Assembly (NCBI GenBank): GCA_947179485.1
Contig: OX359246.1
Coordinates: forward strand, 22,692,001 to 22,756,000
DNA: 64,000 bases
Source: Allacma fusca
Lineage: Eukaryota; Arthropoda; Collembola; Symphypleona; Sminthuridae
Direction: 5' to 3'
In this document: one piece after another, positions 11,113-64,000 of the stretch
Layout of the letters: each line of letters begins with the position of its first letter
Position numbering within the stretch: the first letter of the stretch is position 1
Notes under the pieces: model-generated
What the model saw: only the letters and a program-made list of their open reading frames with translations
Told to the model about the DNA's origin: nothing
The model's database searches: none
Program-made: the position numbers and the translations under genes

Positions 11113-11135
11113 AATAAATCAATAACAGTTTAGTC

Positions 11136-13116: not shown

Positions 13117-16100
13117 TTGATTATGAGTGACCAAGCTAATCCCAGAAAAAACAGGAAACAACTTTTGGTTGCAAGATCTGTTAGCCCAACAATGAAAGTT
13201 CTCAAAACAAGAATCAATACCAAATCTGACCAGACAAGCCGGCTTGTCTTCAAGGGGTTACCTAAGGAGCAAACCGATGCCGAATCGAGTCAGATCAAAG
13301 CTGTTGAAATCGAACAAACCGGAAGCATCAATGAAGACCCTCAGCAAACAAATAAGGTCGTTACAGTGAATCAACTTGCAAATGTCAAAATAAAACGAGT
13401 TAACCCAATTACAAATTGGATAACGCATACAATGACTGGTGGAGCAAACTTGGATGGAAATGAACAAGAGATACAAAATACTAAATGTAGCAATAACGAT
13501 GAAGGCAATGTGACTGGTGAGAGCTTAAACATCTTGAAAGATGTACAAATTGCCAAACGGCCAGCTTTTAAAATGCCTAAATGGCTTCAGAGTTACTTCG
13601 AATATGAAGGACATGTTGAGGGTTCTCAAAATCAGCGTCAAAGCATTGCAATGACTTGCAAAACATGTAAATCTGATGATGCAGCTCAAACAAGCACAAC
13701 AATTAGGGGACCTCCATTCTTTAATTTCTATAGTCACCTGAAGGTATTTTGCAGGGCTAAATTTATGGTGTTGAAACAAGTATGCTTGTTTTAATTAATA
13801 TTAAATAAATTTTACAAAGCTGCTGTTTATTTAAATTTAGACCTGGCACCTTTGAGACTATGAAAAAGAGTCAAGTAGGGGGAACGTTGGAGATTCTGGA
13901 AAGCCAAAACCTTGGACAGATGTTGGAACCAACTGCGGCGATTTTCTTTTTGAACCGAAGAAAATGACCAAACCCACTAATGACGATGCTTATCCGATGA
14001 ATCACCCGATTCAAAAAAACTTTCTTCGGGATGTAATTGATTGCGTTGCTATAGATTCACTTCCATTGGACTTCATTGAAAGGCCTACCTTTATAAAGCT
14101 TATTCGAAATCTAAATAAAAGTATTCGCATAGTTTCTCGGAGAACAGTCGGGAGAAAGCTAATTGAGTACTATCGAGAGGTAACAATTAAAAATTAAACA
14201 TGTATGCATGTTTCTTTAAAAATTATTTGTTACCGTTGTTTGAACTAGTTCGAAGCCAAATTGAAACGGTCGGTCGAAGAAATTGATTCCAGAAGTTTCC
14301 ACTTAATTCTTGACATGTGGACTGATCGTTCCAAACGTTCATGCTTGGAATTCGAGCTCAATTTGTGGACAAATATTGGAGGCTAGTAAATAAAACCATT
14401 GGATTCAGGCATTTGCCTAAAAGACACACAGCACGTGCCATAAGAAATGTTTTCGACCATGTCATTACTAAAACCTTCGAAATTGGAAGCGATAAAGTAA
14501 GTGTGCCTAGATTTAATTACATTATTTCACCTTTATTATCATTATTAATTATAAGTCAAGTACTTATGAACAAAAACATGCATGCATGTTTACAAATTAA
14601 AGGTTGGATTTGTTTGCGGTGACAACGCTATAAATGTTATTGCGGCATTCAAGCATTTGCAGCCCATTGCTTTCAACATGACCGAGATTGACTATGACGA
14701 TGCTGAAGTTGACGACGAGGATGAATGGGAAGGTTTTGATGAATATTTTCAAGATGGCAAAATATCTGATTCGGACGACCGAAACGAAAACAGTGAAGTG
14801 ATTTCCGGTTTAAATAATTGGGCAAACTCTACAATTACTAAATTGCCTTGCTATGCTCACTTGCTTCAGCTGATAATAAAGGATTCATTGAACTCATCCC
14901 CCGTAGTTGCTAGTCTTGTAAAGGATGCTAAAGCTCTGAAGAAATATTTTCATTCGTCTCCCTACTGGTATGATCAACTGAAGCAACAGGCAGTAAAAGG
15001 ACTAGTCAATCAAGCAGATACCCGTTGGAGCACGGTCTACTATATGTTGGAACGCCTTTCGGATGTAAGGTTTATAGAGACAAGCATGCTTGTCTAATAA
15101 TTCTATTATAGTAATGTTTTATTTATTTTACAGCCTAAAGTGCAAGAAGCTGTCTCTAAAGTGCTCAATGAAACACGAAAATCAAAAAATCCATGCAAGG
15201 TGTCGTTTTCAGCTGCTGATTATAAGAAATTTAAAATCATTGCGAACCTTCTGGCGCCGTTCATGGATTTAACTAACCAACTACAATCTGATAAAGTCAC
15301 CTCGCCACTTGTGGTTCCTGGGATTAGTTTTGCTTACAGCTGTACGTGAATCTTGCTTTAAAGTTTATCATTGAAATGTTATAAGAACGCAATAAAATTT
15401 TAATTTTTAACAGCGGTCTTAGAAGTTGACGTATAGGGGATGATTATGATATTCTGAGCTTCCAGTCAAAGCTTTGCGAGAATTGGAGAAAAAGATTTGG
15501 TTGAAGCCAAATCTACGTCTGCCGAGTCCCATGATACTGATGGAAGAAGCCGAATCTTCACAGATGCCATTTTCAAAAACGATAACTTGATTCTAGTAAC
15601 AATTCTAGATCCACGACTAAAACTCAATCCATTTCGACGTAATTGTTTTTTTAAACGCATTCAGACAAGCATGCTTGTCTTTACTGATACTAACATGTAT
15701 GTATTTATTATCTAGCTACAAACACCCCAGGAGATTGCATCAATTCAGGCCACTGTAACGAAAATAATGCAAGAGATGTATTGGAAAGAAGTTTGCAAAG
15801 GTTGCGATTAAAAGCAGGAAATTGTTCAAGAAATTTCAGTGCAGAATCCAGGCGTGACCGGTCCCCTGTCCGAAAAAAAATCTTTGTTTGGTCACGTAGC
15901 TCGTGGAATGGAAGAATCTTGTGCCGAAACAGACATTCGAGAACTCTCCAGTCAAGAGCTTCAACGGTATCTGGACTTACCCAATGAAGACGAAACTATT
16001 AATCCACTGGATTTTTGGAGACTGAATCAGCACAACTTACTAATATTAGCAAAATTAGCAAAAATATTTTTGGGATTTCCAGCTTCTTCTGGGTCAGTAG

Positions 16101-16228
16101 AAAGGCTCTTTAGCATTACCGGAGCACTGCAGCGATCAAGGACAGCATCACTGAAATGGTCAACTTTGGAAATGATGCTGTGTTATAGAGACATGCGGGT
16201 CCTTGAGCTTTTTGATCGTTTTGGATGA
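13117..16228 (+). pseudogene. hAT transposase, at least six exons
   Basis: BED-type zinc finger in the first exon (about residues 166-210: W...YFEYEGH ... CKTCK ... FYSHLK), then the DNA-binding and RNase H-like parts in later exons (LDMWTD, FVCGDNA, CYAHLLQLI, ADTRWSTVYYMLERL) and the hATC dimerisation region at the end (FPASSGSVERLFS). Introns readable in sequence: 14180-14248, 14497-14602, 15065-15133, 15341-15413, 15639-15715, all short with GT-AG ends; one more follows 13743. The frame is hard to follow after 13841, at 14366-14380 (overlapping frames), and between 15430 and 15840, which suggests decay or missed exons. The stop is at 16226-16228. Confidence 0.85.
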
Positions 16229-19125
16229 AATCGGGAAAGACAAGCATGCTTGTCTGTAGTTAGCGTTTTATTGACTATTTTTCCAACTATGCACAAATTA
16301 ACTGAACTAATTTTGCAGTCTGCAATGCAGAGAATTGACTGAGGTTAAATAAAAGATGAGTGTGAACTAATTGTACTACTTGCATTTTTATTTTCAACAC
16401 AATCTATTCATAACAATCAGTATGGCGACATTTTTATTTAACTACACTTATTCAAATTTGCAAGACATAAAAATAATTACATTCAGTAAACTGATTGCAG
16501 CTTTGAGATTGGTTATTTTGTTAACTAATTAATATTACATTACTAACTAATTCCCATACCAAAATGTAAACGGGATATTTCAAAGTATTTCAAACGCTGA
16601 AAATTAATTACATACCACTAACCCTTTGATTTCTCTATTCACAAAAAATTATTTCCCTTGATTCTTCAGACATGCATGTCTTCCTCCATTATGGCCTAAA
16701 CAATCTGTGACATAAGTCTTAATGCAACTTCATCACAATTGACTATTGCCAAAATGTGACGAAATTGCTTGACTACGAAGGGACAAGTATTTCCATGGAG
16801 CATTGCTACCAGTCCATCCCAAAGTAAAGGCGATGAAGATGCCTTGGCAATTCTCTCCAGTTCCTTTACATCTAATATGTTATTAGGGGCTTCGTCCATT
16901 GTTCGTCCTAAACCATCTCGCCACTCAAGTAATGATTTGAAGACTCGAATATGATGAGGGTCGGAAAGTCGTACCACATTCGTTGCGATTAAGGTTTCAT
17001 CCGAAGGGTACTTCTGAAGAACGAAGGTTTTTCGAAGCTTAATTTTAGTATTGTTAAATGCTCTTTGAAGTGCTGACGCAGATGTCGAAAAACAAAAAAC
17101 AACATTAACAATTTAATTATCTTAATTAGACCAGCATGCTTGTCTAATTATGAATAACCATGCTTACCTTTTCAAGTAACCACCAAAACATGTTATACAA
17201 ATAGTGCAATCTTGCGCCGCATACTCGTCTAATTGTCCAAGTGGTCTCACCCTAAAATCAGCAGCTTGACCAGTTTTGTCAAGTTTAATTCCATTTTTTC
17301 GAAACAACGACTCGACGAGTTTTTTGTATGATACAGGATTCGGCTTACTCCATTCCTCTCGGATTCTATTTTCGGTAATATCTTTAGGATGTACTATCTT
17401 CTTTTTGCACCTAGCTGTGTCGATAATGTGGTCTTTGAAAGCAAGCTTCATGGTTTTGAAACAATCATCCGGGTCTTCAATCTTCCATTCATCCTACAAG
17501 TCCTGTATGTCGATGACTCAACTTAAAAAGGATTGAAAGCTGCTCTGCGTCATAAGGACGTCATTCTGAATGCCACACATTACTTTCAAAACATGGTTTG
17601 ACTCTAGCAAATTTGGGACCAAGTCCTCCATTATTTCTTCCCTTACTTCAAAAGGATCTATTTTATAATTGAATCTTGAAGTTCCGATCTGAACTAATGC
17701 GATGAGGCCTGGAATAGACGAGCATGCTTGTCTTACACTGAAAACACTGCATTGAATATCAAACTTCATTAATTGAAATTAGCTTTATTATTATTACCAT
17801 CATATGAATGCTCCTTATGGAATTCATAATCAAGAGAAATCACGTCTTCAAGAATTAAATCTTGGTGCATCTCGGCATAACGGGCAGGTGTATCGATCAG
17901 ACTAAATGGAACATTTCTTGAAAGTTGCTCTTCAAAGCCGTCCGGCTTTGTATATTTTGGGATCTGGCTCGTCCTTATTCGATCTCGTACACTTGCAGTT
18001 GCCAATGGCCAGTCAGACCAAACTCCAACGCCTTTATTGAGTCTACGTAGGTACTTCATAAAACTTATGTACTTGTCCTGAGGTCTGCTTGTAGCCACAC
18101 CGAATCTCCTGTCAGCATTGGCCTTTTGTTGGTGGTAATTCATTTCCTCGGAATGTATCTAATACAATGTATAAAATAATAAAATCTGACATATACAAAG
18201 TTAAATTTCACGTTAGAGCTAAGACTCATTAATTTTTGTATACTTGGTTACAAAATTCTAGACAAGTATGCTTGTCGCAATTCAGTTGTAAATGTTTATA
18301 TTGTGTTTACTGAATTATAGTAATAAACATAATCTTAATAAAATCCCAACACTGTTAATTGTAGACGCTAAGAAAATACATACCAAAACTAATGTAGCAC
18401 AAAATCCAGTATGCTCTGGAAAGCAATAGACAAGCCTACTTGTCTTGACGGGAAACCTGGATTCCTGAAAATTACATTAAATTAGATTACTGAAAAATCT
18501 CGAAGTAAACGTAAGTTAAAGATTTTAGTTATACTATCGAAGAGTGCTCAATATTTTGTTCTCGTATTTCAATTAATCTAGCTAGTTTAGGAAAACGTGT
18601 GTAGGAAAAAATCAAAACCACGTAATTGTATTCTAATATTACTGCGAATATTGTATTTACCATAAGAGATAAAGTTTTACTTCCAGTGAACTTACCAGTG
18701 ACAAAGTAAGATCTTCTAGATTTGAAAATATTTTTGGCGACTTGTAATGCTTACTTGTATTGACACATCAGCCAGAGACCCATGAAATAAGTTCACTTGA
18801 ATCACTTGAAAAGACCCTTCTAAAATCCAAACGTACGAATTATTCATTAAATAAATCACAGATACACATACACCCGCAGTGGATCAATCTCAATAGATAA
18901 TTGTTTGAATTATCAACTTAAATTGTTAATAAAAATTACAAACGGCATAGACAAGCATGCTTGTCTGCACTTGAAATCAACGAAGTATATATATTTCATA
19001 ATTTATAATATAGTAATAATATTAACATGAAAAATGTAGACAGAACTGAAAGTAATAATTACCTGCCAATACTACAGATTCTGGTTGTGAAGGTTTGAAG
19101 TACTGTTAGACAAGCCTGCTTGTCT
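13774..19125. repeat. Dispersed 18-bp palindrome, 13 copies
   Basis: Consensus AGACAAGCATGCTTGTCT, perfectly or nearly perfectly palindromic. Copies: 13774-13791, 14196-14213, 14574-14591, 15078-15095, 15663-15680, 16238-16255, 16668-16681 (14 bp), 17128-17145, 17716-17733, 18260-18277, 18428-18445, 18949-18966, 19108-19125. Variants mostly keep the palindrome (AAACATG.. with ..CATGTTT). Five are in transposase introns, two in exonuclease introns, two start 10-15 bp after the stop codons of the two genes, and four lie upstream of the exonuclease gene. None is in a recognised exon. Confidence 0.9.
16696..18143 (-). pseudogene. Rrp6/RNase D-like 3'-5' exonuclease with HRDC-like domain, inside hAT
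   Basis: DEDD-family exonuclease of the Rrp6/EXOSC10 type, which trims RNA from the 3' end. Read from 18143 downward: FSLIDTPARYAEM leads into exo I LDYEFH (D and E present); then LIALVQIGTSRFNYKIDPF and exo II KVMCGIQNDV (D present); then an Rrp6-like FRVRPLGQLDEYAAQD, exo III with Y and D present; the last exon (about 17074-16696) resembles an HRDC domain (LLEWRDGLGRTMDEAPNNIL). The first intron (donor after the YDG codons near 17805, acceptor TATTCCAG near 17711) and the one at about 17074-17169 are phase-plausible. Two in-frame stops near 17486-17520 break the central part, so this copy is probably dead. It converges with the transposase gene: the two stop codons are about 470 bp apart. 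Such a gene is not a normal hAT component. Confidence 0.8.
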
Positions 19126-27054: not shown

Positions 27055-28871
27055 TCATTCAAAAACCTTGCTTTGTAATTCAATCAAGCGATTTTCCTCA
27101 TATTTTTGTAGTGTAGTGGCTGAGGAAAGGGAAGCAGGGGCGAGAATACGGTCTGCAGCAACATATTCATCCAGCACACAAATGTCATTTGGACTTTTAC
27201 AACGAGTCCACATTACATAATCCAAGCCAACACACAGTTGCGACTGGTCCAGAAATATTGCAACCTTATTCAAATTTCTTACTTCATAGCGATGAGCTGT
27301 AATTGCATATCCAAGCTCCATACAGAACCTTTTACTGCATATTAGAGACCCAGTTGCATCATCCTTTTCAGAATCAGACTGTCGGAATATAGGGGGCCCT
27401 TTCCCCTCTTGGTTTTGACAAACACATCTCCAGTATAATGTGGGAAATGAACCACCAAAAAATGTACATTTTTATCCAAGCCTATACCTTCACTCTTACT
27501 ATAATATACTAAATCTTCAATACACCCATCGGAACCATTACATAAACCAACGCGGGAGCAAATATTCCGCTGTTATATTATTTTCACTCCAATAGCTATT
27601 TCCAGGGGTCGTATTCCATTCTCAATGTGAACAATCTCCTGAGTTAAAAAACGTGCGTACAATTGGTCCCTATAAGTACATTAATAATAACAATTTCAAA
27701 CGCACATTTAGAATTTATCTTATGTACATGTAACTTACTGGTTGTAGTCCCACACAAGTCTCTTTAAAGGGAATATATGCAGAGCATCCCGGAATGTTTG
27801 TTTTTCTTCCTTACCAAGTTTGCTCAACTGTCGGGAGCGAACAAATTCCAAATCAGATTGCACGCACTCACGTCTCTTTAATCTCCCCAAAAATTCCAAG
27901 AAAAACTTTTGCTCGTCACTATCTCCATACTGACGGTACTGCGTGTCCAAAATTATTACTGTCTTAAACGATTTGTATAATTTGTACACATCTCGTAGAT
28001 TTGGGTTGTGCTTTGATGATTGGTAAAAAAGAGGGGAATCAGCGACTGCAAAAGTTTGATAGACGTCCCCAAATAAAATCACGGACCTGCCAGCAAATGG
28101 TTTACCTGCATGTGCCGGATCATTTCTGCGGAGAATTTCGTCAATATTTTTGAGCATGTTTTGTCCAATAAGAGAAAATTCGTCAATTACAATAATTTTT
28201 ACATTGGAAAGTTTCTGTTTCTCTGTTGCAGTTGATTTCGTTGTATTTTCCACAACGATTTCATCAGTCACTTCCTGTTCAATTACATTACTTGCGTCTT
28301 TCTTGAAAAGTTGGAATACAAAATGCGGAATGAATTGTTTCTCCTCCAATTAGAAAGCTGGCACTGCCTGTCAAACTTGCAAGTATATAATCAAAGTCGG
28401 CACACTTTTGCTTCCTAATGTCAAAAAGGTATTTTAGATGAGCTACCAATAACGATTTTCCTGTCCCTGCTATTCCTTGCGTTACACATTTGATTTGTGA
28501 GCCCGTTTGCTCTTCAAAAGGTTTTTCGATATGTAATTTAAACAAAATTACCAGATACCCTTGTTTCTCACTTAAATCCTCAACAGGAATTTTCGGATAT
28601 CTTGGTTTGTCTTGTAAACGTTTCCATTGTTTTACCCACTTTTGAAACACTCTGGTGTCCACCTCATTTCCCGAATACTCCATGGCTAAGCTTTAGATGC
28701 GACTAGGAGACTTTTCTTCAAACATTGCAAATACTCAAATCTATAGAGCGGGAAAATGTTTTTTGGAGGGAAAATATTTAGCAGCGTGGTTGGTAGCGCA
28801 GCTTTCTGATCGATTACCGCATTTTCGCTACATGATAAAAAGGAAAGGAGCCTAGGTTTTCTTTCAGTCAT
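27055..28871 (-). pseudogene. PIF1-like superfamily 1 helicase
   Basis: DNA helicase running against the polymerase gene. From 28871 down: Walker A GIAGTGKS (about 28470), then a TIHSAF segment, Walker B VIDEFSLIG, motif III-like LFGDVYQTFAV, YRQ and LKR motifs, then after an intron GLDYVMWTRCKSPNDI, the C-terminal motif usually written as A.SR. The intron 27670-27738 has donor GTAAGT and acceptor ACTTATAG. Frameshifts near 28320 and 27560-27330 and a stop after KVII near 27575 break it, and the C-terminal YAITAH motif has R-Y where KSQ is expected. PIF1-like genes are not in every Polinton; membership is by position (82 bp from the polymerase end). Confidence 0.75.
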
Positions 28872-33500: not shown

Positions 33501-34215
33501 ATGGAACTCGTCTATTAGTTTTCTTCCGAGCAGGGTGAGTTGATGCAGGGATAAACAGTTTTGATGAGTCATCTGAATAAAACTCGTCGTCTGTTGAGGC
33601 TGAGAATTCTGTAGAGTTGACCTCCTTTGGTGCTACGTGTATTTGAAAGATAGATGATTGTTCCAACTTGGCATTTGGTGTGTGTTGCAATTCTGTTTGG
33701 GTTGCAACATTCGCTAGTGAAACTGGAAAATCACTTAATTTGCGGATGTCGTCACTGGGCTCAATGAACTTGTATATCATCTCTACGTATCCCATGAACT
33801 TATTGTAAATATGATTTTTGTCTGTGTTTATTGTAAATCCCCCTTTGGAGTAAAGAAAGTCGGTGCCAATGATGGCCTTTAATGCCAAACCCGGTGCTAA
33901 AATAAAAGGGTGTAGGAAAGTGCAATTGTTAATTTTAATTCTAATTAGAGCCATTCCGGCGTTCTCCGTTCGATTCCCGGATGCATCGATGAGCGTAGTT
34001 GTACATGGAAATTTTTTTGAATTGGGTGGTACTAAAGCTGGACATATAAGGCTAGCTGCGGCACCTGTATCAATGAGGCACGTTGTTCTATTGAGTCCAA
34101 TTGTGACATAAATTTTTAATGAGCATGTGACTGAGTTGATGTAGCATGAATTTTTTATTGTGATTGATGGAACGTAGGCTATGTTGTGGATGGGGTTGTT
34201 AGAGGTTTGGTTCAA
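30569..34215 (-). pseudogene. pol: gypsy-1 pol: protease, RT, RNase H, integrase (partial)
   Basis: Aspartic protease CLIDTGAAASL at residues 46-56 of the frame starting 34215; reverse transcriptase with KARVVVDLRSLN, STLDLFSGFHQI and the YVDD box; RNase H from the RTFLYS segment near 32010, continued after the MITE as SDASTYGLGAYL; integrase zinc region (H, H, CEICQ) and the first two catalytic Asp (IDVQGP and QSDLGTEF). A one-base excess in a T-run near 32170 shifts the frame between RT and RNase H. The 3' end of integrase is lost. Confidence 0.9.
31595..31991. mobile_element. 397-bp MITE in gypsy-1 RNase H
   Basis: Perfect 42-bp terminal inverted repeats starting CAAGGTAAGATTTTC, flanked by the 3-bp duplication TGA (31592-31594 and 31992-31994). 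Removing it rejoins the RNase H reading TFLYS-DAS, which fixes the ends. The internal part has no coding frame. A 3-bp duplication suggests a PIF/Harbinger or CACTA-like source, but the ends match no family I know. Confidence 0.85.
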
Positions 34216-35830
34216 TGGTTGTTGTACTCTTGTATTTGGGCTTGATTTGTTGGTGGCCCCGTAAGCATAGGCAGGTGTCGCGGGGGGGCTGGTCCGCGTA
34301 CCGGTTCCCGTTTAAATGAGCCTGATAGTTTTGTTGAAAGTTTCTTGGGTTTCGTGACTGGAAGTTTCGTTGCTTCTGGTATTCCATGTAGTGCATGGGT
34401 ACAGGCTGTCTGCATACAGCCGCTTCATGGCCAGGTCTTTGGCACCTCTGGCATGTAGTGAATTGTCGTGCTTGCTCCCGGCAATCCTTCGCTCGGTGCC
34501 CGGGTTTTTTGCAGAAATGGCAGTTGCCAGAAAATCTCCTCTCTTCGATGCACTCTTGTGTGTTGCGGAAACTGCCCTGAATCCGGTTGTTGAAATGTCA
34601 CTCTTTTTGCTGGTCTTTGGCTGAATCCTTGTTGATTCATGGCCATCACTGCTGTCTGATTGTGCTGTTGAGCAAAGGCTTCCATTAGGGTATCCAATTT
34701 TTTTGATAGTTGAAATGGCTTGCTCCTCAGGCAGATTTTTCCATTCTTCTTTTGCGGCTGCTTTCACTCTTAATGCAAACAGGCTAGACTTTTCGTTGGG
34801 CAGTTGACACATAGATAATGCATCCAACAGTTTTCCCTGTGTGTCCAGAATATCTCTCGGCATTTCTTTGATAACGGTTTCTCGGAATTGCCTGAATGTG
34901 TGGTAGTGGTTTGCGGGCACACTATTATAGTGCTTTATGTAGTCACCAGCTGTTTTACATGAATCTGACAGTTGCCGCTTGGCAAATGTCTTTTTTGTCT
35001 CATCTTCTTCTTGTGTATTGAGGAAAAATTCCTCGCATTTTTCAAAGAAAGTCTTCAGACTTTCTGTAGAGACTTCGGGGGGTTTCAGGGTCGGTTTTTC
35101 AAACAAGTAGGTCCTGTTGGAAATCATTCTTCTGCCCGGATTATTACCTGTCGCTAGTCGATGCTGCACTGGTTGGGGTGGAATAAGCTGGGTTTGTTCT
35201 TCTTCGAATATATCTAGGATATAAAATACTGAACCCACTGGACTATTGGCGGGACTTGGTGAATGTATTGTTGAAGCGGCACTTCGCGGATCTGGGCTAG
35301 ACTGTTGGGAGTTTCGTCCTAATATGCTGTTAACGGATTCAGTGCTGGTGGCCTTGTCAAGTTCTCGTACTAATTCTATGTAATTTGCCCTATGCTCGGT
35401 TTGTATGAGTATGTGAGCAACTTGTCTAAGTACTTGCCCGAAAACGGCGCTGGATGAAAATAGATAATTTTCTGACGTTCTGTTTTGGGTGACCTCAAGT
35501 TCTCGGAGTATATCGACGTAATAATCGTAGTTCAGCAACGTATATCCGGTACCGTCGGCGTCGTCAAGAGTAGTTACACGGTGTGCGTAATCGTCGATTA
35601 AAACTTGGAGTAAGTGTTCAGGGTTGTCGCGTGGATCGGGGGACGGTATGTTATTCCTATAGTTAGGATTATCATTTAAAATATTATTTCTTACAGTTTC
35701 GGTGATAGTGTCCTCGTCCTGCGATTGTATTTGTTCCTGGGACCCGTTCCTGGGTGTACTGGTATAGGTTGGTGGTATATTATCTCGTACTGGTGTAATT
35801 GGCCGGGAATCGAAATTTTGCAGTACAGCT
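34200..35830 (-). pseudogene. gag: gypsy-1 gag
   Basis: Coding signal runs without an ATG from about 35830; the long frame to 34312 covers matrix/capsid-like sequence. Two CCHC zinc knuckles (CHFCKKPGHRAKDC and CQRCQRPGHEAAVC) are read in a different frame at about 34420-34545, so a frameshift separates capsid from nucleocapsid. Arg/Gln-rich sequence follows to 34200. Confidence 0.75.
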
Positions 35831-48712: not shown

Positions 48713-49154
48713 TGTAATAGGGTGTGGCGTGGCAGGGAATAGCTACTGCTAAGCTGTAGGTTAGAACAACAAACATTACCAATATGCCAAGAATCACACA
48801 CTATTCCATTCTAAAAAGCAAGCCCAATTAAATATACAATGTAATTAAATAAATAACTAGATGAAAGCAAAATATGTTGCCAATGCCAATCTTCAGGATG
48901 CGGCCAGTAAATGTGAGACTCCAGTCCAGGGTTTAGTTAACGACAATATATATCTTTGATTTATTAATGTGGATCGCTACTATGACTCAGGGATACAAAT
49001 AGTAAGTCTCTTCAGTCCGGAGCTCCAGGAAGCACTGAAGCTCCTCGTGGCACACATATAAGATGCGGCCTCTCTCTCCGCTTCAAGTACACAGAGTTAG
49101 CCTCAGATCCACTGAGGCTGACATACGCTTGTAAAGGATACCTTCTCCGTTACA
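48713..49154 (-). repeat. gypsy-2 3' LTR
   Basis: Read on the - strand it starts TGTAACGG right after the polypurine tract and ends CCCTATTACA, the TG...CA form. A TTATATG string about 90 bp in may be a TATA box and AATAAA-type signals occur downstream. 48713-49010 matches the 5' LTR. Confidence 0.85.
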
Positions 49155-49167
49155 CCCTCCCCCTTAA
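49155..49167 (-). other. Polypurine tract
   Basis: AAGGGGGAGGG on the - strand, directly before the LTR start TGTAACGG. This is the plus-strand primer for reverse transcription. Confidence 0.8.
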
Positions 49168-49188: not shown

Positions 49189-49935
49189 TTATGGTTTTGA
49201 GTTAGGGCTGGAAAAGCGATTCTTCCGTTCATCTCGTTTGCGTTGAAATTGCTTTCTGGCCTGAATCTTCTTGCCGCTCCTATGCCTATTGGCTCTGGTG
49301 AGCTGCTCTCTGGTCAACTTCAAACTATTTGGAACGTGCTGGTTGATGCAGTTCTTCTTTATATGACCAGGCTGACCACATTTTGAGCATCGTTTTGGAG
49401 GAAGATGAGGGTTGACTTCCAGGGGCTGGTTGGTTGTGATAACACATCGGTTGCCTTCTACAGGTATGGTGACATGTAAGTCGCTCCGCTGATCCGTGGC
49501 GCCATCTATATTAGTAGGCAAACGAGCTCTGGATTCTCCAAGGCTCACATCGTCTACTTTATTGAGCAGTTGTCCCTCTTGGTTGAACACGAGTACATCC
49601 CCGTTTTCTTCAATAACGTGCTGAACAATCTCGGATGGGTCAATGTCGTCTGATGAATTTGACACTTCTTCAACATCAATTTCCATTGGTGTGAAATCAT
49701 TTGACGATATAATGGTACTCGTCATGCCAATGAGAATGTCCACTATGTACCTTGCATGTTCTTTAGCTGGTGCTGACAATTCTAAGTTCCGGTTAATGCG
49801 GCTAAGAGTAGTTGGGGTTTTGATCTCCAACAACTGCAAGATGATGCCCTCACTGAGAACTTCTGATATCGCCATGTCTTCGTCGCGTGCTAGTTGGACT
49901 CTCCAAGTATTTAGCATTACACACCTTAGCTTCAT
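49189..49935 (-). CDS. gypsy-2 ORF4: zinc-knuckle, basic-tail protein
   Basis: 248 residues: a helical-looking N-terminal part, an acidic middle (about residues 90-125), one CCHC knuckle CSKCGQPGHIKKNC and a strongly basic tail (RKQFQRKRDERKNR). This is a nucleic-acid binding design like a nucleocapsid, but it is separate from Gag. It is in the same frame as ORF3, parted only by TGA and TAA 9 nt apart and a few codons, so both may come from one ancestral frame or from stop readthrough. No Pfam-like family recognised beyond the knuckle. Confidence 0.65.
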   Translation of the reverse strand: MKLRCVMLNTWRVQLARDEDMAISEVLSEGIILQLLEIKTPTTLSRINRNLELSAPAKEHARYIVDILIGMTSTIISSNDFTPMEIDVEEVSNSSDDIDPSEIVQHVIEENGDVLVFNQEGQLLNKVDDVSLGESRARLPTNIDGATDQRSDLHVTIPVEGNRCVITTNQPLEVNPHLPPKRCSKCGQPGHIKKNCINQHVPNSLKLTREQLTRANRHRSGKKIQARKQFQRKRDERKNRFSSPNSKP

Positions 49936-49953
49936 GGGTCGTTAACGATCTGT

Positions 49954-50808
49954 TCAACGTTCTTTGAATATGTTGTACAAAAAAACTGGTTCATACATCT
50001 TATTCTGGATAATGACATTAATACGTTTCGTAACAATTTTCGCTTCCCACGATTCCAAATTAACATACAATTCATTTGAGGTATTACAATTTCTAGCTTC
50101 GGTTTTAATTTTGGACCAAATTTTTATAATTGCTCTTGAAAATCTAGCAGCAGTTAATTGAGCCTCATAATCTACCAAATCTCGTGACCAATCAACCATA
50201 AAATTTGATTTAGCAAAATCGGTGTTACAATGTGTACGACATAATTCATTTAGACCTTTATCCAATTCCGATCCTTTTTTACCCGATAAATAGTAATGTG
50301 CGAATCTAACGTCCACAGAGCAAAGAAGAATACAATCAAAATCTCTGAACAAGTATTTCGCGGTTTTGTTTGAATAATATACAACCTTCAAAATATTCGG
50401 ATTTTCACAAATTATTTTTACGCGTTCTCTAATATAATCAAAATCATTTAGCAAAGGAATAACATAAGTTTTAGTTTGCGTAGCAATAGAAATATGAGTA
50501 CAAAAGCCGTAAGCAAATGTATTCTTACAATTAGCAAATAAAGAAAATCCAATCCCCTTCTCAATCACAACAGCATTGAACATACAATTAATCAGTAGCC
50601 TTGACGAACAATACAGAACAGGTGCTTTCAACGAATAGTTAGTTATAATATCGCGATGGTATTCTGACAATTTCCACACATCTATAGCAGCGTTCTGCAT
50701 TAAGGATAACTCAAACTTAGCAGCATTATTAATTCGCTTCATGTGAGATTTAAGCCATGGAAGTTTGTCCTGAATCCTGTTAATATTAGCATGAAAAACT
50801 GGTAGCAT
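49954..50808 (-). CDS. gypsy-2 ORF3: RNase D/Rrp6-like domain, catalytic residues lost
   Basis: 284 residues in the place of env, but with no signal peptide or membrane anchor. From about residue 66 the order of segments follows Rrp6/EXOSC10: HISIATQTKTYVIPL (105-119, as in MQIST..TFIVD), NPNILKVVYYSNKTAKYLFRDF (137-157, gapless against the KVFHGADSDI.WLQRDF segment), SVDVRFAHYYL (164-174, as in FDT..A..L), DWSRDLVDYEAQLTAARFSRAIIKIW (206-231, as in DWR.RPL...YAR.D..YLL). Catalytic positions are changed: exo I Asp is Val 81 (Glu 83 kept), exo II Asp is Thr 149, exo III Asp is Ser 224. So it is probably an RNA-binding, non-cleaving relative, as in Egalitarian-type proteins. The fold call is by eye. 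Confidence 0.6.
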   Translation of the reverse strand: MLPVFHANINRIQDKLPWLKSHMKRINNAAKFELSLMQNAAIDVWKLSEYHRDIITNYSLKAPVLYCSSRLLINCMFNAVVIEKGIGFSLFANCKNTFAYGFCTHISIATQTKTYVIPLLNDFDYIRERVKIICENPNILKVVYYSNKTAKYLFRDFDCILLCSVDVRFAHYYLSGKKGSELDKGLNELCRTHCNTDFAKSNFMVDWSRDLVDYEAQLTAARFSRAIIKIWSKIKTEARNCNTSNELYVNLESWEAKIVTKRINVIIQNKMYEPVFLYNIFKER

Positions 50809-50842: not shown

Positions 50843-50844
50843 CT
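50843..50844 (-). promoter_or_regulatory. Splice acceptor before ORF3
   Basis: On the - strand TTTTTTTTTGCAG ends at 50843, 35 bp before the ORF3 ATG. A long pyrimidine tract so placed suggests that ORF3 and ORF4 are made from a spliced subgenomic RNA, the way env is in errantiviruses. The donor was not identified. Confidence 0.6.
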
Positions 50845-51174
50845 GCAAAAAAAAACATTCAAAATAAATAAGAATTAATTAAAACATTTGCTCTGGTTTC
50901 ACCATAGCAATTTAAAAGTGTAATTAATGGTATAATCTAAAACGAAACAAAATTATAAGCCAATCAAAGATTATACACATTAAAATTCAATTCCCTGCAC
51001 CCGAAGGCGCGACTATGTACATATTTAACTGCTAGCATGAGTCCCGCTCCTGCTATTCAGTTAGAAAGCAAACAAAAAAAAACTTAACCTAATTTTGAAA
51101 TCCTTAACCTAACCTAAAAATACAGATAACCTAACGTTCATGGCCAGAACTATACTAAAATTAAATACTTCCCC

Positions 51175-54100
51175 TTAGTTAAAAAATGAACTAGTGTTCA
51201 AAATTAAATTTAAAACTTGATTAGGCTTTCTCCTGCGTGCGTCCGAATAATCTACCTTAGGCTTTTTACGCAACACCCTACCCGAATCATTACTGGGTGT
51301 TTCAGGTGTGTGAACTTCCGGCTGGTTAGCCTGACCTACGAGCAAATTATCATTAGCTACAGAAAAATCCTTCCTACTCTTCCTACTTTCCCAAACATTT
51401 GCACGTGCGTCGTTTCTTTCATCTTCGTAGTAAGGTCTAAACTCATAAACATGATGAGTTCCGAATGGTTCACCTGTAGAGACATGAGCTATTTCAAATG
51501 TTAAGCCAGGAGTGATTTCTCGAATTAATTTAAATGGACCGAACCACTTTTTGCTCAGTTTTTTACTAATCTTTTCCTCAGCATTTGAGAGTATGTGGGT
51601 TCTTAGTAACACTTTATCACCTACAATGAATTTACACGGCTGCCTTTTCCTATCATATCGTTCCTTTTGCGACAAATACGAATTATGCATGTTTTTTAGC
51701 ACCCAATCTCTCAACTTACTTAACTCTAGTTGTAACCAAGCAGCTATTTGTTCTTGTGTTAAAGTTGGTCTCTCTGCTGGCGCAATTGCTCTATCAATTG
51801 GCAACTGAATGATTCTACCTAAATTAAGTAAATCGGAGCTACATCCTAATGATTCCCTCACCATGGTGCGTAAAGTTAATGCGAATTTCTGGAGATAAAT
51901 GTCCCAGTCCGACTGTCGTTTGCCACAAAATGAAGTTATCATAGTTTTTAAGTCCCTGTTGGAACGTTCAACCTGATTTCCCTGCGGGGAATAATATGCT
52001 ACTGTTCTGTGTTGGATACCCCAACGTTTGCACAACTTCTCAAAAACTCTACCTTCAAACTGAGTTCCGTGATCAGTAATAACTTTATTTGGAAATCCAA
52101 ATCGGCAAAAAACTTGATCCTCTAATAATTCCGTCAGAATCGGTGCAGTGGCCTTTCTCATTGGAAATATTTCGAGTCATTTCGTGAATTCGTCCTGACA
52201 AACTAAAATATACTCATTTTGTCTTTTAGTCTTGGGTAGCCGACCAACAATATCTACAAATAAAGTTTGCATGGCTTCAGCTACCTTAAAGTTATGACCC
52301 ATCAGTCCTTGCGGAACTTGGTTATTTGATTTGACCTGTTGACACACTTGACATGACTTGCAAAAATTCTTAATGTCATTTGTCATGCCTTTCCAAAAAA
52401 ATCTTTTCATTATCATGTGCCTGGTTTTCTTAAACCCTAATTGCGCGCATTCTGGGACATCATGAAATGAAGATATAATTTCAGATCTCATACTTGCTGG
52501 TATCACAGGGACTAGCATAGTCTTACTTTGCAATTCCCCTATCTGTTTCTCATAATCAGCTTTACGCTTACAATCAGCATCTGATACTTCCTGTAACGTC
52601 AAAAGCTTGTCTCGGCCGGCGTTTTCTATTTTACGTTGCCACAATAAAGCTTTTTGCTTCAATCTCAGCAAAGGACGCTCCTCACGCCCCTGTAACCTAT
52701 TATAGAACAAAGCTAAAGGTTCATAAGCATGCTCCTCACATGCTATCATTGAAGTACACATAAACGTACTCAGTAAAGGTTCCTCACCTTCTCGATCGCA
52801 GAACTGAGCTGCATTTAAAGGATATTCCTTGCTACGCATAGCATTTTTCAATCTCGATAGTCTAATACTCATTAGACTTAAGCTTGGGCTATTCAAAGAA
52901 TTTATTTTATCCTTCTGAAGATATTCATCGAGTTTCCTACTCGAAGCTTTACCCAACTTCTTAATTTCCAACATATTATAAGTGGGTACTCTAGCACATA
53001 ATAATCCTTCGTGCAATTCATAAATCTGCTTACAAGACAGTTTCACATTGTTTTCTAAACTTGTGATCACGGAAGCTAATTTCAAGTCCTCGCGCTGAGC
53101 TAATTTCAACCGTTCTTTAGTAACCTCGGTAGCTAGATAATTTATACGAGGAATTAATTCACCTTCTGCAATTTCATCAAGGAGTTGATCAGGCTCGCAT
53201 GAATCCTTTGGTGCTCTACTTAAAGCATCGGCGAGTATATTCGCTTTCCCTTTAATGTGCTTTAACTCATAATTGTACTCTTCTAGCTCAATACTCCAAC
53301 GCTCAACTTTAGCCTTCCTACTTGGATTCTTCTTCATCCAAGTGACTGCCATATTATCGGTTTGGACAATGATTTTATGTCCTGCAATTAGATTGTGAAA
53401 TTTCCTTAATCCCCAAACGATTGCAAAACATTCCTTCTCGTATACCCGCCATTTCTGTTGATTAGGGTTTAAAGTAGCACTTCTACATTCAATAATGTGC
53501 TCTTTCTCAGCTACAATTTGAAGTAAAACAGCAGCTATAGCTATATCACTAGCATCAGTCTGAACAATAATATCCTGCTCATAGTCAATTCCGTGAAGAT
53601 AAACTTCTTCTTCCATTCTATCTTTAATGGAATCAAAAGACTTCTGCTCTGCCTCTCCCCATTTCCATCTAGAAGTTTTCTTTAATAAGTTATAGAGTGG
53701 TGCCGCTACTTCTGAAAAATTCTTAATAAATGTCGAATACCATGCTGATTTACCTAAAAATCGCAGTACCGCTTTCTCATTCTTTGGCACTTGATAGTCT
53801 CTTATACCCTGTACTTTCTCCGGACTTTTCTTAAGACCTTGCGGAGTAATGATGTGGCCTAAAAATTCGGTTTCCTGCTTTGCAAATTCACATTTTGTTA
53901 AATTAATTGTGACGCCTGCCTGCCGAAGAATATTGAATACAATGCGTAAATGCATTAAATGTTTCTCGTATGTTTTCGAAAAGACTAGCCCATCATCTAA
54001 ATAACACATAATTATTTTATACATCCAATCCTTGAAAGCATAATTCATGAACTGTTGGAATGTTGCTGGAGCATTTGTCAATCCGAATGGAAGTCTGACG

Positions 54101-55062
54101 TACTCATAATGACCTCCTCCAGGAACACTAAAAGCTGTTTTAGGGATTGATGCTTTATCTAGGCGAATCTGAAAATAACCGTTTTTCAAATCAATTTTCG
54201 AAAACCATCTATACGAGGGAATCATTCTCAACGCATTGAGCGGTTTGAAATTGAGACACATCCGAAAACTACCATCTTTCTTACGTGCCAAAACAATATT
54301 GGAGTTATACGGTGATGTCGACCTCTGTATAACCCTGGCTGCTAACAATTTTTCTATCTCCTCATCTATAACTTTTAATTGTGCTGGGGGATAGCCTCTA
54401 ACTTTAGTCTTTGGAATTATACTATCAGGACAATCTATGTGATGGTAGACCCAGTCTGTAACGCCAATGGACCCGTCTATTGGAGCTACATCTCTGAACT
54501 CATCCAATAATTCCTGTATATCTCTATCCATTTGTTTTTTAGTTGGAATTTCGTCATTATTCTTAACTGCTAAATTCAATCTAAAAGAACCTTTCTCATT
54601 AGTTTCAATTACATATGGATCGTTAGAAGGGAGAATACCATACCAAAAAATTCCTTCCTTCAGGCTGAAACTCAAATCATTAATTTCCAAGAACTGTTTG
54701 CCTAATATTAAATCAGTACCGCATTCCAGTTTGGATAATACATGGAAATTATCCTTTAGGAGTCTATCCCCAAATTGAAATTGTAATTCAATAGTTCCTC
54801 TTGTTTTGACAATTTCCCCTGACGCGGTTTTGAATCGACTTCCCTTAGAATTTGATTCTATTGGAAATGGAAGTTTACTAGCGATTTTTAAGGTTATGCA
54901 ACATCTAGAACAACCTGTGTCTATTAAGGCTCTAAGAGTATAGCCTTCAACATGCAAAGTAGTGGTTGGGGGCGTGTCATTGTAGCTAACTGTGGATACC
55001 GGAGCTAAAATTAGTTCCGAGAGAAAATCAACTGGGACAGTACGAGACTGTCCCTCTAACAT
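51175..55062 (-). CDS. pol: gypsy-2 pol: protease, RT, RNase H, integrase
   Basis: Frame from ATG 55062: protease RALIDTGCSRCC (DTG at residues 48-50); reverse transcriptase with SKIDLKNGYFQIRL and YLDD; RNase H with VQTDASDIAIAAVL; integrase zinc region (H, H, CKSCQVC), Asp in LFVDIVGRLP, Asp in VITDHGTQFEG, Glu in NQVERSNRDL. A single in-frame TGA at 52174-52176 interrupts integrase in an otherwise open frame of about 1295 codons, where a Trp is the family residue (FTK-W). It is the main defect of this young copy. The tail after the core is a typical gypsy integrase C-terminus. Confidence 0.95.
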
Positions 55063-56272
55063 TCCCCCGAACTGTCAGTATCGTGTTGACTCAGAGGTTC
55101 AGAAGAACATTGATGCCTCACATAACCCTCGCCACCACACAACCAACATTCTACTGATGTATGCTGAAAGGTCATCATAATGCCCTTATTCTTACTTGGA
55201 CAAGCTTTCTCAATGTGCCCATAACCTTTACAACCATGACACTTGATTTTGGTGTCAACCTGCGCTTTGGACTTGTCAAATCCGAACTTCCTACTAAACC
55301 CCTTTTATCATTTCTGGAAGTGCTGGCCTCTGACTTGCTCTCTTCCTTGGGACTATGACCTGATCCATTACTGTGGTAACCTCGACCTCGACCTTGAAAC
55401 CTTCCTCTGAAACTACCCCGATGAGAATTTTCTCTGTAGCCCTGTTTTGAATTTTCATTTTTATCCTTTTTGTGAGCCTTGCCGGACTCACTATCAGTTT
55501 TGCTCTCCTTTTCCGAAACGCCAGCTAGAGGTGGAAGCCCCATTTTCCCTAGCTTATCCAATTTCTGCGTTTTATGGAGAATACGCAAAGCATCCTCCGC
55601 TGCAGCTATCAATTTGCCTGCAGTCGGATTAGCCTGATCAGGGTCCCATTTTACCGTTTGATATATTCTGTAATGAAGCCCGTGATATGCTCGACGCAAC
55701 CAATCACTAAGGGATTCTCTCCTATCTACTTGTGTAGCCAGAAAAATCATTTCATAAACATAATCCGCTACCGGCTCAAAATGTTTCTGGGACTTAGTTG
55801 CTAATAAACGTAACCGTTCCTGCTTATCGAAGGCAGTGTCAAATTCTGATGCAAATTCCATCTGTATTTCAACCCATGTTGTGGTTGCAGTGACTGTGTT
55901 TTCATACCACTTCTGCATATCACCCTTCAAGATACCTCCAAGTAAATATACGTACTTGTCGGCAGTATGATGCTGCAGAGTAAAATACTTCTCTACCTGG
56001 GTGAAAAAATATTCAGAGGTCATCCTCTTCCTATCATATGTAGGAATCTGCATGTTAGAATTGGCCAAAATGACATTGTGACCAGGATTTGCAACTGGAT
56101 TTGCAGCTGGATTGGCTTGCTGTGTACATACAGTAACTAATTGTTGTGCCGCTAGGGCAGCTTGCTCGGCTATCCTAAGATAGTTGCCACTGTCATTTTT
56201 AGCCTTTTGCATGAACTGTAATAGAAAAGCTTTCTCAGGGTCCCCTAAGCCTTGGTACCATGCGTCAGCCAT
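55056..56272 (-). pseudogene. gag: gypsy-2 gag
   Basis: From ATG 56272, capsid-like sequence (EYFFTQVEKYFTLQH, MQKWYENTV) then an Arg/Gly-rich linker (RGRFQGRGRGY). Two knuckles, CHGCKGYGHIEKAC and CWLCGGEGYVRHQC, are read in a different frame from the capsid part; the shift lies at an A-run near 55300-55308. One base missing would explain it; -1 frameshifting at the run is the alternative. The knuckle frame ends at TAG 55056-55058 and overlaps the pol ATG by 7 bp. Confidence 0.85.
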
Positions 56273-56574
56273 GTCCGTAGATGAGACGCTATTTAAATTT
56301 TGCGTACTACTATTTTTGCAACTTTAGCTTGCCTATTGATTTGTCTCTCAGCCCGTGCAGAATTAGCATCAACAGTAGGATTCCCCTGTTTAATAATGGA
56401 TTTATCCTCCTTACTCATATACAGATATTTATTAAAATTATAATGACCATGAACTTTATTTAAAACTTGTTTTAAAAAAATTATTTAAAACAAAATACTG
56501 CTCTTTCTACCAGCGCAATGGCATTAAGATATTTGTAAAAAAAATATATGTGGAACTTCGATCCAGCTTGTAGT

Positions 56575-57579: not shown

Positions 57580-57877
57580 TGTAATAGGGTGTGGCGTGGC
57601 AGGGAATAGCTACTGCTAAGCTGTAGGTTAGAACAACAAACATTACCAATATGCCAAGAATCACACACTATTCCATTCTAAAAAGCAAGCCCAATTAAAT
57701 ATACAATGTAATTAAATAAATAACTAGATGAAAGCAAAATATGTTGCCAATGCCAATCTTCAGGATGCGGCCAGTAAATGTGAGACTCCAGTCCAGGGTT
57801 TAGTTAACGACAATATATATCTTTGATTTATTAATGTGGATCGCTACTATGACTCAGGGATACAAATAGTAAGTCTC
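57580..57877 (-). repeat. gypsy-2 5' LTR, truncated
   Basis: Same sequence as 48713-49010 with no difference seen. The U3 start present in the other LTR is absent; unrelated sequence begins at about 57879. Confidence 0.9.
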
Positions 57878-58204
57878 TAGTACGTCAATATTAAAAAAAA
57901 ATTATTATTATTTAACACGTTGCAAAAATGGAATTCTCTGGAACTTAAACCCAAAATTGTAGCTCATAAAACTCCAGTGTGCTCTTTTCCTTATTAGCTC
58001 AGCAAAAGTATATTGAAAGTGCTACTTGTCTTAGCTAATTTCAGTTATTACTGTACTTTGCGCTGCGATAATTAATTTAATGACTTACTGAATTCTCATT
58101 TAAATTCGAGTAGCTAATGGTATTACACATGTTGTGCTGCTATTTATTTTTTAATAAAGTCGATCTGAAATTTGGCTTTTTAAATCGATGTATAAACGTG
58201 TAGG

Positions 58205-58405
58205 TTGTACTTTTCTGCTAGTCTTTAAGTACTTTTGGGAACAGGAACAGGAACATCCCTGTTCCTGCAGGAACAGGTCCAGGAACTTTGAATTGGTACC
58301 CATTTTTATGGGAACAGGAACAGGACCATTGCTTTAGTTCCTGAAAAAATGGGTACAGGTACAGGAACAGGTATGGGTAGCAAATTTCCGTTCCCATGGA
58401 CATCA
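58205..58405. repeat. Degenerate GGAACAGGAACAG repeat
   Basis: About 190 bp of GGAACAGG-type units in both orientations, ending TTCCCATGGACATCACTA. A diverged relative lies at 41940-42070. Probably a hAT-type MITE remnant, but clear target duplications were not found. Confidence 0.5.
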
Positions 58406-58754
58406 CTACATTACAGTCAAGAGCTGTTGCTGTTGCAAGTTTTATGCATAAACTTTCCACTAATGTTACCCAGAATATATTTAAGTGTGCATTTGGAAAT
58501 TCTGAATTATTCGATAAAGTAGAATGAATTGTGATTTCCAAAACTGATTCGGTGTTTAAATTTTCCCCTTGCTCTTTCACGAGAAATTTGATGATTTTCG
58601 TCACCTTCACTACTTGTATCGAGTAAAAAATTCATAGTTTACTGTTTAAAACCTGTCTAAATCTATATTAATTATTTACAATATATTTTTATAGCTATAT
58701 CAAAACAATTGTGTAAACTCTATTTACAATTTGACAGCGGTTTAAGGTACTGTC

Positions 58755-59723: not shown

Positions 59724-60300
59724 ACCTTTGAGCGACAGTTGTAAGTCACTTGTAATTACTCTGGTATATGAAACGTAATAATTATAAATCATTTACAATT
59801 TCCTGTCAGTTGTTGTCAGTGTTTATGAAATCATATTTCAATTGAAAATTGATAATTGTCACTTTTCACTTGTAATTGCCGGATTGTAATGTTTATGAAA
59901 TAGGGGCCAGGGCTAACATTTATGTTAAGACCACCTTTATGTTGCCACAAACTATGTATGTCCTTGACCAGTGGACATTGGAATAATTATTTTCATATAA
60001 ATCAAAGATCCTGCACTGTCAATTAAAATCTTCGATCCAGACGATTGTCTGTTTCCCACAAACTGGGACTAAATACCCGTACAGGATCGCTCGTAGCGCT
60101 TCCGGGAATTTGTATTCCGGTTCCTCTTACGGTGGCCCCATAATTTGAGAATACAGCAGACCTAATGCAAATATTTATGTTGGATTTGATTTTCTTGTCC
60201 TCACAAAAATATGCACTTTTTAAGCCGTATTGGGTTCATATATATACTTGTCAGCGAATAAATATTTAGGGCAGGTCGCAGAGCTCCCTAAATAAACAGA
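59724..60300. other. No recognisable gene
   Basis: Low-complexity AT-rich sequence with repeated CAGTT/ACAACTG strings near 59730-59830; no coding signal. Confidence 0.3.
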
Positions 60301-60307
60301 ACTTGAT

Positions 60308-60960
60308 TGATTATTTCTTAGTAATCAGCTACGTCTGATTTTTTTATCTACAATAATCAGTACACTTGAGTTTTATCCCCGGGTTTTCCTTTGAAATAAT
60401 AATAAATAATAATTCATTGACTATTTTTTAGTAATCAGCTACTTCTAAATTTTTGAGATCTATAATAATTATTTAATTTGAAGCTTTAGTACACACAAGT
60501 TTTTCCCTTGAAATGATAATAAATATCAATTCATTGACTATTTTTTAGTAATCACTTGCGTCTGAATTTTTGTTTCTGCAATGATTATTACAGTTGAGGA
60601 TTATCCCCATGCAGTTATCCTCTTGAAATGATAATAAATGATAATTCATTGACTATTTTTTAGTAATCAGTTGCATCTGAATTTTTCCTATCTACAATAA
60701 TTATTTCATTTGAAGCATTAGTATACACACGTTTTTCCCTTGAAATGATAATAAATAATAATTCATTGAATATTTTTTAGTAATCACTTGCGTCTGAATT
60801 TTTGTTTCTGCAATAATTATAACAGTTGAGGATTATCCCCAGTTTTTCCCTTGAAATCAATCATGATTCATTGATTATTTTTTAGTAATGAGCTACGTCT
60901 AAATTAATTTTTCTACAATAATTATTTTACGGATATCGTGTCTCTTATCTGGTTTCCCCT
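60308..60960. repeat. Six-copy tandem repeat, period about 100-118 bp
   Basis: The marker TGACTATTTTTTAGTAATCA or close variants starts each unit near 60308, 60416, 60533, 60648, 60766 and 60866, followed by CTACGTCTGAATTTTT, an AATAATTATT string and CCCTTGAAATGATAATAAAT. Units alternate between two versions of the middle part (TTTCATTTGAAGC against CAGTTGAGGATTATCC). Confidence 0.85.
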
Positions 60961-63175: not shown

Positions 63176-63518
63176 GGGCCAGGTTCCTAAGCACACGCAA
63201 AATGTCATTCCGGTCCCGAGTGGACATGGGGCGAGGGTTTCTTGTCAGTGTAAATAAACACTTACATGTACAAAGTAATATGGGGGATGGTGTAAATTAA
63301 GGTCAAATTTAAAAACAAAAATCATTTGAGAAAATAATATTATTGTTGTTTTAGATAAAACGTAAATAAGGAAGACCAAACACGAAACCATTAATTCAGT
63401 AAGTAAATTTAATGAATTCAAAAAATTACATTTTTAACCTGATTTATGCAAATTCGGAACACCTCAATGATATACTATTGAAGTTTCATGTTGAAATGGA
63501 ATAGAAAAGGGAAGCGTT

Positions 63519-64000
63519 ATGAAGCGCCAACGGCTTAACAACACAGGTGTTGCCCTAAAATCCAGAAGAATCAACACAGTTCGTGCGAATGTAATACATG
63601 GCGACCGCAATTCCGTTTACGTCAATCATGAGCAACCAGTCACAAGGATACGTCATATTAACAATTTAGTTTTGCATTTCACCGGGAGAAGCAATCTACT
63701 GGATACCACTGATTTAGCGTATAAAAGCGAAAGCAAAGAAAAATCTCTGCCAAATATCGTGGTATTGCATTTTTGGGGACATGCCCAAAAATTATGCAAG
63801 GGTGCAGGCATTTCCAAAGGGGCTGGCAAAAATTGCAGAGCATTTTCAATCGACATACCCTAATTACAATGCTGAACGCAGGGGCATATTCAATAGCTCC
63901 TTAAAATTCAATAATGTTTCCAATAATCCAGTGTCAGGAGCTGTTTGGAAACAAATTTTGAAATTCTAGTTTCATAATTAAAAATTTGATTTTTCTAAAC
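63519..64000 (+). pseudogene. NB-ARC gene copy 3, start only, P-loop eroded
   Basis: ATG at 63519 opens a frame whose residues 27-85 follow the first exon of the 4146 gene: GDRNSVYVN, a VTRIRHINNLVLHFTGR stretch against VSKIKLISSPVFNFTGR, then NIVVLH against NVVLCG. At the P-loop position the sequence has no GxGGxGKT; the frame shifts and continues near 63797-63969 with KGLAKIAEHFQ against KTELAKFYGNQ. The window ends inside the copy. It is a degenerate paralogue, or a relative that lost nucleotide binding. Confidence 0.65.

Follow-up and report, generated by a model that had tools for sequence, protein, structure and literature searches.

In bdelloid rotifers, the LTR retrotransposons Juno and Vesta as well as the Penelope-like Athena carry DEDDy ORF3s, whose invariant residues the available text of that study describes as intact, with DEDD changed to DEED, and for which it gives at least two acquisitions (PMC5408684). 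The same text reports that the gene is shared among element types, that a Cys-His-Cys motif occurs in Vesta2 and Vesta5, and that pol carries a dUTPase domain in three rotifer lineages (PMC5408684). The extra ORFs of the rotifer elements are reported there to show no significant departure from neutrality, a role in 3'-end processing is suggested, and EXD1 and Maelstrom are named as inactive DEDD relatives (PMC5408684). Dada transposases provide a further case: in two species they are described as containing a DEDDy domain in which none of the four catalytic residues is lost (PMC3706591). Moreover, the exonuclease-like domain of Egalitarian is described, in the text available, as contacting RNA about 15 Å away from its putative catalytic residues, which are dispensable (PMC13186709).

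The window analysed here, a 64,000-nt stretch of the springtail Allacma fusca (contig OX359246.1, 22,692,001 to 22,756,000), contains a Ty3/gypsy-type LTR retrotransposon on the minus strand at 57878-48713, as seen from its LTRs, its gag and the pol order protease-RT-RNase H-integrase. The two direct repeats are identical over 299/299 nt (57580-57878 versus 49011-48713). All element features that follow lie on the minus strand. The 5' LTR (57580..57878) lacks approximately its first 143 nt, with the sequence beyond 57878 departing from the 3' copy, and the 3' LTR (48713..49154, TGTAAC...TATTACA) has its outer start placed by the TG..CA ends and by the putative polypurine tract AAGGGGGAGGG that precedes it at 49155..49165. 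The gag ORF (55175..56323) matches Retrotrans_gag just under the curated cut-off (E=1.8e-4, 22.1 bits versus 24.1), and a CCHC knuckle, CHGCKGYGHIEKAC, is found at ~55241 in a frame other than that of this ORF. Pol is read in two parts, the first with Pfam matches to protease, RT, RNase H and the integrase zinc domain (52177..55074), the second comprising the integrase core and C-terminus (51175..52176; rve and SH3_Tf2-1, both below the curated cut-off). At E<=1, Pfam assigns no dUTPase family to the window pol. The window copy of pol is interrupted in frame by a stop at 52177, whereas in related copies pol stays open for up to 1326 aa.

Downstream of pol, ORF3 starts with an ATG at 50808 and ends at a stop at 49954 (49954..50808, 284 aa), encoding a pseudo-exonuclease domain of the Rrp6/RNase D type with replaced DEDDy residues. 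It matches DNA_pol_A_exo1 with E=1.8e-8 (34.8 bits versus a cut-off of 23.6); together with the identical repeats, this bears out the proposal of the initial annotation that an LTR retrotransposon carries an RNase D-fold ORF in the env position. A second ORF (49189..49941) follows directly in the same frame after two stop codons and contains a zf-CCHC match (E=1.5e-4) and an HRDC match below the cut-off (E=0.023); its HRDC-like stretch lies at ~49914-49795 and is followed by an acidic linker, and its CCHC knuckle lies at ~49392-49348 and is followed by a basic tail. This ORF is the rear part of a single ancestral ORF3, which small frame-shifting indels have split in the window copy, since L014, L015, L017 and other copies read through both halves without interruption. 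The full ORF3 of related copies is a single open frame of 516-574 codons, which rules out a complete protein of 284 residues, and the continuity of the halves likewise rules out that the ORF at 49941-49189 is the gag of another element. About 60 residues precede the exonuclease domain, and the order of parts is exonuclease domain, HRDC-like domain, acidic linker, CCHC knuckle and basic tail. Thus, the window copy is recent but broken, given the ORF3-splitting indels, the pol stop and the loss of about 143 nt of the 5' LTR. The initial annotation had described a fully open frame in a young element; its coordinates and the recent age of the copy stand, but the open frame covers only the front half of ORF3 and pol is broken.

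The window ORF3 alone found EXOSC10/Rrp6 as its best PDB match (E=0.006), and in this match the exo II stretch aligns without gaps, just as had been noticed by eye. A profile was built from one alignment of 14 full or near-full ORF3s from six lineages (A-F); it matched Rrp6 in PDB with E=7e-11 across both the exonuclease and the HRDC domain, and it picked up a weak similarity to the knuckles of retroviral nucleocapsids (E=0.05). Among these 14 sequences, DNA_pol_A_exo1 was matched by all (best E 1.2e-10), zf-CCHC by 13 (best E 3.7e-5) and HRDC by 12 (best E 0.0049), each at E<=1. Single-sequence HRDC matches are weak, as in the window copy and in L014 (E=0.057, 13.8 bits versus a cut-off of 23.8). 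A seventh lineage, G, consists of loci L050 and L051, which the Pfam search of the genome missed; the ORF3 of L051 alone gave an RRP6 match of E=7.7e-7, and its HRDC region found first GCN2 (E=0.035) and then WRN (E=0.09), both weakly. A structure model from the window ORF3 sequence alone reached a mean pLDDT of 34, so that the fold call rests on the profile matches. The Pfam matches of the 14 ORF3s include no env family and, at E<=1, no PMC2NT, the N-terminal domain by which Rrp6 binds Rrp47, which makes a direct exosome decoy less likely.

These matches bear on two alternative functions. ORF3 might localise element RNA by transport of the Egalitarian kind, as the initial annotation had imagined from a resemblance to that protein. 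The charged patches by which the exonuclease-like domain of Egalitarian contacts RNA (PMC13186709) and the co-localisation of HeT-A products with Egl in Drosophila (PMC6114517) speak for such a role. However, kinship with Egalitarian found no support: the sequence and the exonuclease-HRDC-CCHC architecture are Rrp6-like, PDB returned Rrp6/EXOSC10, Pfam assigned a LOTUS-type family to none of the 14 ORF3s, and the stretch ahead of the exonuclease domain is only ~60 residues long. We regard transport as quite improbable. Alternatively, ORF3 might sit on the 3' ends of piRNA precursors and so block this host pathway, to which EXD1 and Maelstrom belong as inactive DEDD derivatives; piRNA evasion was the other use considered in the initial annotation. 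Inactive DEDD proteins do exist in the piRNA pathway (PMC5408684), and weaker silencing would presumably benefit a retroelement. Against this, no sequence tie links ORF3 to EXD1 or Maelstrom, the nearest solved relatives being Rrp6; interference with piRNAs appears to be a rather remote option. The 28 PDB matches of the profile include no EXD1 or Maelstrom chain, in a PDB copy that may lack such chains. An Egalitarian-type or EXD1-type protein was set aside as an identity for ORF3, as the PDB matches are to Rrp6 across exonuclease and HRDC.

In the copies scored, the loss of the catalytic residues is complete. With the host EXOSC10 (L031) as reference, five DEDDy positions were scored (exo I Asp and Glu, exo II Asp, exo III Tyr and Asp), and 0/55 are kept in the LTR ORF3s (11 copies, seven lineages) versus 54/55 in 11 comparison genes, which were drawn from 20 loci that are all Pfam-family matches and are therefore biased towards conserved ones; the exception is a Tyr to Phe change in L029. 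At these positions the window ORF3 reads exactly as the aligned copies of lineage A do, all replaced, so that the substitution first noticed for the catalytic Asp residues extends to exo I Asp/Glu, exo II Asp and exo III Tyr/Asp alike. Between lineages the replacements vary and are frequently aromatic or hydrophobic, and hence no alternative metal site is apparent. We infer from these residues that the ORF3 protein lacks nuclease activity, and since the cutting residues are gone in every copy checked, ORF3 is predicted to hold RNA rather than to cut it.

The C-terminal part also points to RNA. The CCHC knuckle and tail together carry a net charge of +12 to +20 in 17 of 18 ORF3s, the eighteenth being truncated, compared with +3 to +10 for the exonuclease domain, -9 to -16 for the linker and +1 to -6 for HRDC. 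This charge is as expected if the tail binds RNA. It would also suit a second nucleocapsid-like packaging factor unrelated to decay, in which element RNA would be selected by the exonuclease-fold and HRDC domains and condensed into particles by the CCHC tail. A CCHC knuckle with a strongly basic tail in every lineage is in favour of such a factor, as are the place after pol and the acceptor-like site, which suggest a separate protein. Yet Gag already has a knuckle of its own and packaging would leave the retention of an exonuclease fold unexplained, and we consider this role unlikely.

ORF3 is, judging from pairwise substitution counts, under purifying selection. The pooled pN/pS is 0.288 (p=6e-16, four independent pairs), dN/dS ranges from 0.17 to 0.44 in eight close pairs from lineages A, D, E and F, and it is 0.16-0.17 in two diverged lineage-E pairs. 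Pol segments from four such pairs gave 0.10-0.27, and compared with the pooled value of ORF3 this indicates that ORF3 is constrained but more loosely. Identity between lineages A and B is 0.82 in pol versus ~0.6 in ORF3, which evolves faster. Over the A-B divergence, no stop codons are observed in ORF3, where unconstrained change would be expected to leave ~20 (never fewer than 6 in 300 random trials). Comparisons across lineages A, B and C gave dN/dS of 0.06-0.10 and were left unused because dS is saturated. Of the five lineage-C ORF3s, four share one sequence, and the remaining one carries two changes that both alter an amino acid. The pN/pS and stop-codon statistics rule out a random or unused ORF. 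A functionless passenger or a decaying captured gene could account for the broken window copy and for some other broken copies, but it is contradicted by the selection data (pN/pS 0.29), by at least 19 open copies and by the retention of ORF3 across 41-100% integrase identity, and it must be judged highly improbable. The expectation that the protein is probably in use is supported by this selection, and in the family ORF3 is neither absent nor randomly broken.

How widely ORF3 is distributed was assessed in the genome assembly (392.7 Mb, 91 contigs), where all counts are lower bounds. Part of the window integrase as query gave at least 81 matches, with 150 of 340 candidates scored; four second fragments of loci already counted were dropped, leaving a tally of 77. 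An ORF3 match lies 1-1496 nt downstream in 33 of the 37 scored integrase loci with >=41% identity, the other four having none, and in 0/40 scored loci with <=37% identity, where a very diverged ORF3 could escape detection. Using the ORF3 of L051 as query returned 59 matches with all 60 of 60 candidates scored. The full open frame (516-574 codons) is present in at least 19 copies of seven lineages (A to G) and is not evident in 14 of the 33 loci that carry ORF3. Hence ORF3 is a trait of one Ty3/gypsy clade whose integrases are 41-100% identical to that of the window. In the exonuclease tree, all LTR ORF3s fall on one side of a branch with a support of 100/100, a grouping consistent with a single origin. 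Lineages A-E branch in the same way in the ORF3 and the pol tree, each of which had F set as its outgroup; the pol tree does not include lineage G, whose placement in the ORF3 tree is unsure. Outside this genome, no ORF3 relatives were found in collections that appear to be mostly microbial or viral (E<=0.01 for the window ORF3, E<=0.001 for the alignment), viral contigs included.

As env genes use a spliced subgenomic RNA, the sequence ahead of ORF3 deserves attention. In the window, a T-rich tract and an acceptor-like CAG (50843..50855, minus strand; putative acceptor) lie there, the CAG ending at 50843, 34 nt upstream of the ORF3 ATG, exactly where the initial annotation had placed a splice acceptor. 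A pyrimidine-rich tract with YAG occurs 27-35 nt upstream of the ATG in six of seven lineages, and is absent at that distance in lineage F. In mononucleotide shuffles of the upstream sequences, a mean of 0.88 lineages showed the pattern and 0/2000 shuffles reached six, for a pattern that was defined post hoc on sequences already seen; its background is 0.08 per 60 nt in six element stretches. The acceptor-like site fits a spliced subgenomic RNA for ORF3.

The genome also harbours exonuclease-HRDC-CCHC genes that keep the DEDDy residues and have their parts in separate frames, apparently separated by introns. Profile comparison relates ORF3 to the exonuclease part of these intact genes with a probability of 96.4% (E=1.2e-9), and to their HRDC part with only 57% (E=1e-4). 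A nearby, convergent hAT transposase was found at six of 20 exonuclease loci (L030, L035, L036, L040, L041, L042), with L039 as a seventh seen by eye only, and near none of a second set of 20 loci. A unit of more than 4 kb with hAT transposase and exonuclease-HRDC-CCHC gene is common to L036:215-4494 and L040:1938-6288, its catalytic residues being intact in the L036 copy; on the exonuclease side, the similarity stops at CACTGCTGCC, which we take to be a hAT-like end. The window has such a pair as well, related to ORF3 but separate from it: a decayed, apparently intron-containing exonuclease-HRDC gene in a putative hAT element (16696..18143, minus strand; HRDC E=8.1e-5, 22.9 bits versus 23.8), in which the DEDDy residues are readable by eye, and convergent hAT transposase fragments (14570..16228, plus strand; Dimer_Tnp_hAT E=1.1e-13 in 15812-16225). 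A palindromic AGACAAGCATGCTTGTCT-like motif recurs 11 times (<=3 mismatches) over 13232-19108, across both genes, with none elsewhere in the window and none in 20 shuffles. Among the open-access papers listed, none was seen to describe an exonuclease gene carried by a hAT element.

Since ORF3 has no introns, capture of a processed copy is likely, and its ancestor was probably an intron-free copy of an exonuclease-HRDC-CCHC gene like those that this genome still has with intact catalytic residues, several of them next to hAT transposases. The AU test (p 0.24 and 0.15) does not separate descent from EXOSC10 from descent from the hAT-type genes, the branches being long, and in the free tree L032 and L029 come nearest to the LTR ORF3s, weakly and again on long branches.

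Several further features of the window lie beside these elements. At 8361-11528, an rve integrase ORF (E=1e-13) is followed by further ORFs, and 22883-28692 includes a PIF1-like helicase ORF (E=1.2e-5, just below the cut-off); we take these regions to resemble a Maverick/Polinton-type element, and a possible DNA polymerase ORF at 25945-26973 has no Pfam match at E<=0.01. A second, different retrotransposon occupies the minus strand at 30575-35829 (RVT_1 E=3.3e-28), preceded by an ORF that looks knuckle-like by eye. An AAA/NB-ARC-type ATPase ORF is located at 4137-5030, with a short look-alike recognised by eye at 63495-63863, and two chemoreceptor-like ORFs have no Pfam match at E<=0.01. Further, six copies of a 71-nt repeat spaced by 105-117 nt lie at 60291-60925. 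The peptide MGTEI.YPYLFLYLYPFFQELKQ... (C-terminal) is common, by eye, to 58218-58631 of the window, where it adjoins the LTR element, and to L037:5398-5826, where it adjoins an exonuclease gene; the shared stretch is probably a dispersed repeat.

What, then, might the LTR clade gain from ORF3? The Rrp6 fold handles RNA 3' ends, and host cells destroy retroelement RNA by exonucleases and the exosome. One study reports that LTR elements go up when mouse ES cells lose Exosc3, a subunit of the exosome (PMC10842741). Because the fold handles RNA 3' ends in Rrp6, the cutting residues are gone and the tail is nucleocapsid-like, ORF3 can be read as a guard of RNA. We tentatively favour, at somewhat less than even chances, that its product binds element RNA and shields the RNA 3' end from exosome-type decay without cutting it. 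The protein would be made from a spliced subgenomic RNA and would bind RNA, the retained fold would handle the 3' end without cutting, given the predicted loss of nuclease activity, and the benefit, the most conjectural step, would be protection of element RNA. More generally, the ORF3 protein would likely help to protect or escort the element's own transcripts. Points that weigh against the shielding model include the broken ORF3 and pol of the window copy, the weak HRDC matches of single ORF3s, the neutral to negative charge of HRDC, the faster evolution of ORF3 than of pol, the four close integrase loci with no ORF3 match, and lineage F with no acceptor pattern at that distance. The fuller version, namely a spliced RNA guard whose emptied site and nucleocapsid-like tail act against the exosome or piRNA trimming, with the hAT form as a still-active enzyme and ORF3 as its inverse, is rather doubtful. 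If shielding is indeed what ORF3 does, a retrotransposon clade turns host decay machinery into a guard, and the function of the rotifer exonuclease-type ORF3s, left open by their discoverers, would become testable. The hAT-linked relatives with intact catalytic residues then offer a natural comparison inside one genome.

Among the open-access papers listed, none was seen to describe an LTR element whose exonuclease ORF has lost the catalytic residues. LTR elements with an ORF3 of exonuclease fold are already known from Juno and Vesta (PMC5408684). The springtail family departs from these in that all catalytic residues are lost, HRDC-like and CCHC parts are added, the ORF3s form one deep group, and purifying selection is clear.

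Like Juno and Vesta, the springtail element is an LTR element with an ORF3 of DEDDy-exonuclease homology after pol. Unlike them, as far as the available text describes the rotifer ORFs, which keep the DEDDy residues, all five are gone in seven lineages of the springtail genome, and the ORF3s here group together and are under strong purifying selection. The ORF3s here have an HRDC-like domain and a CCHC tail, and the word HRDC is absent from the main text of the rotifer study (PMC5408684); moreover, the window pol has no dUTPase match, in contrast to the three rotifer lineages described there. With Dada, as presented in the accessible part of that report, our ORF3 shares the recruitment of a DEDDy domain by a mobile element, whereas the Dada domain lies inside the transposase and retains its residues. 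Egalitarian resembles ORF3 in an exonuclease-like domain whose putative catalytic residues are dispensable, but it combines LOTUS-type and exonuclease-adjacent domains in the text available, where ORF3 has HRDC and CCHC. The closest likeness in architecture is to Rrp6/EXOSC10, where an exonuclease domain is likewise followed by HRDC, as matched by the profile over both domains despite the weak single-sequence HRDC matches; ORF3 differs in lacking the catalytic residues and a PMC2NT match, and in the addition of a CCHC knuckle and a basic tail.
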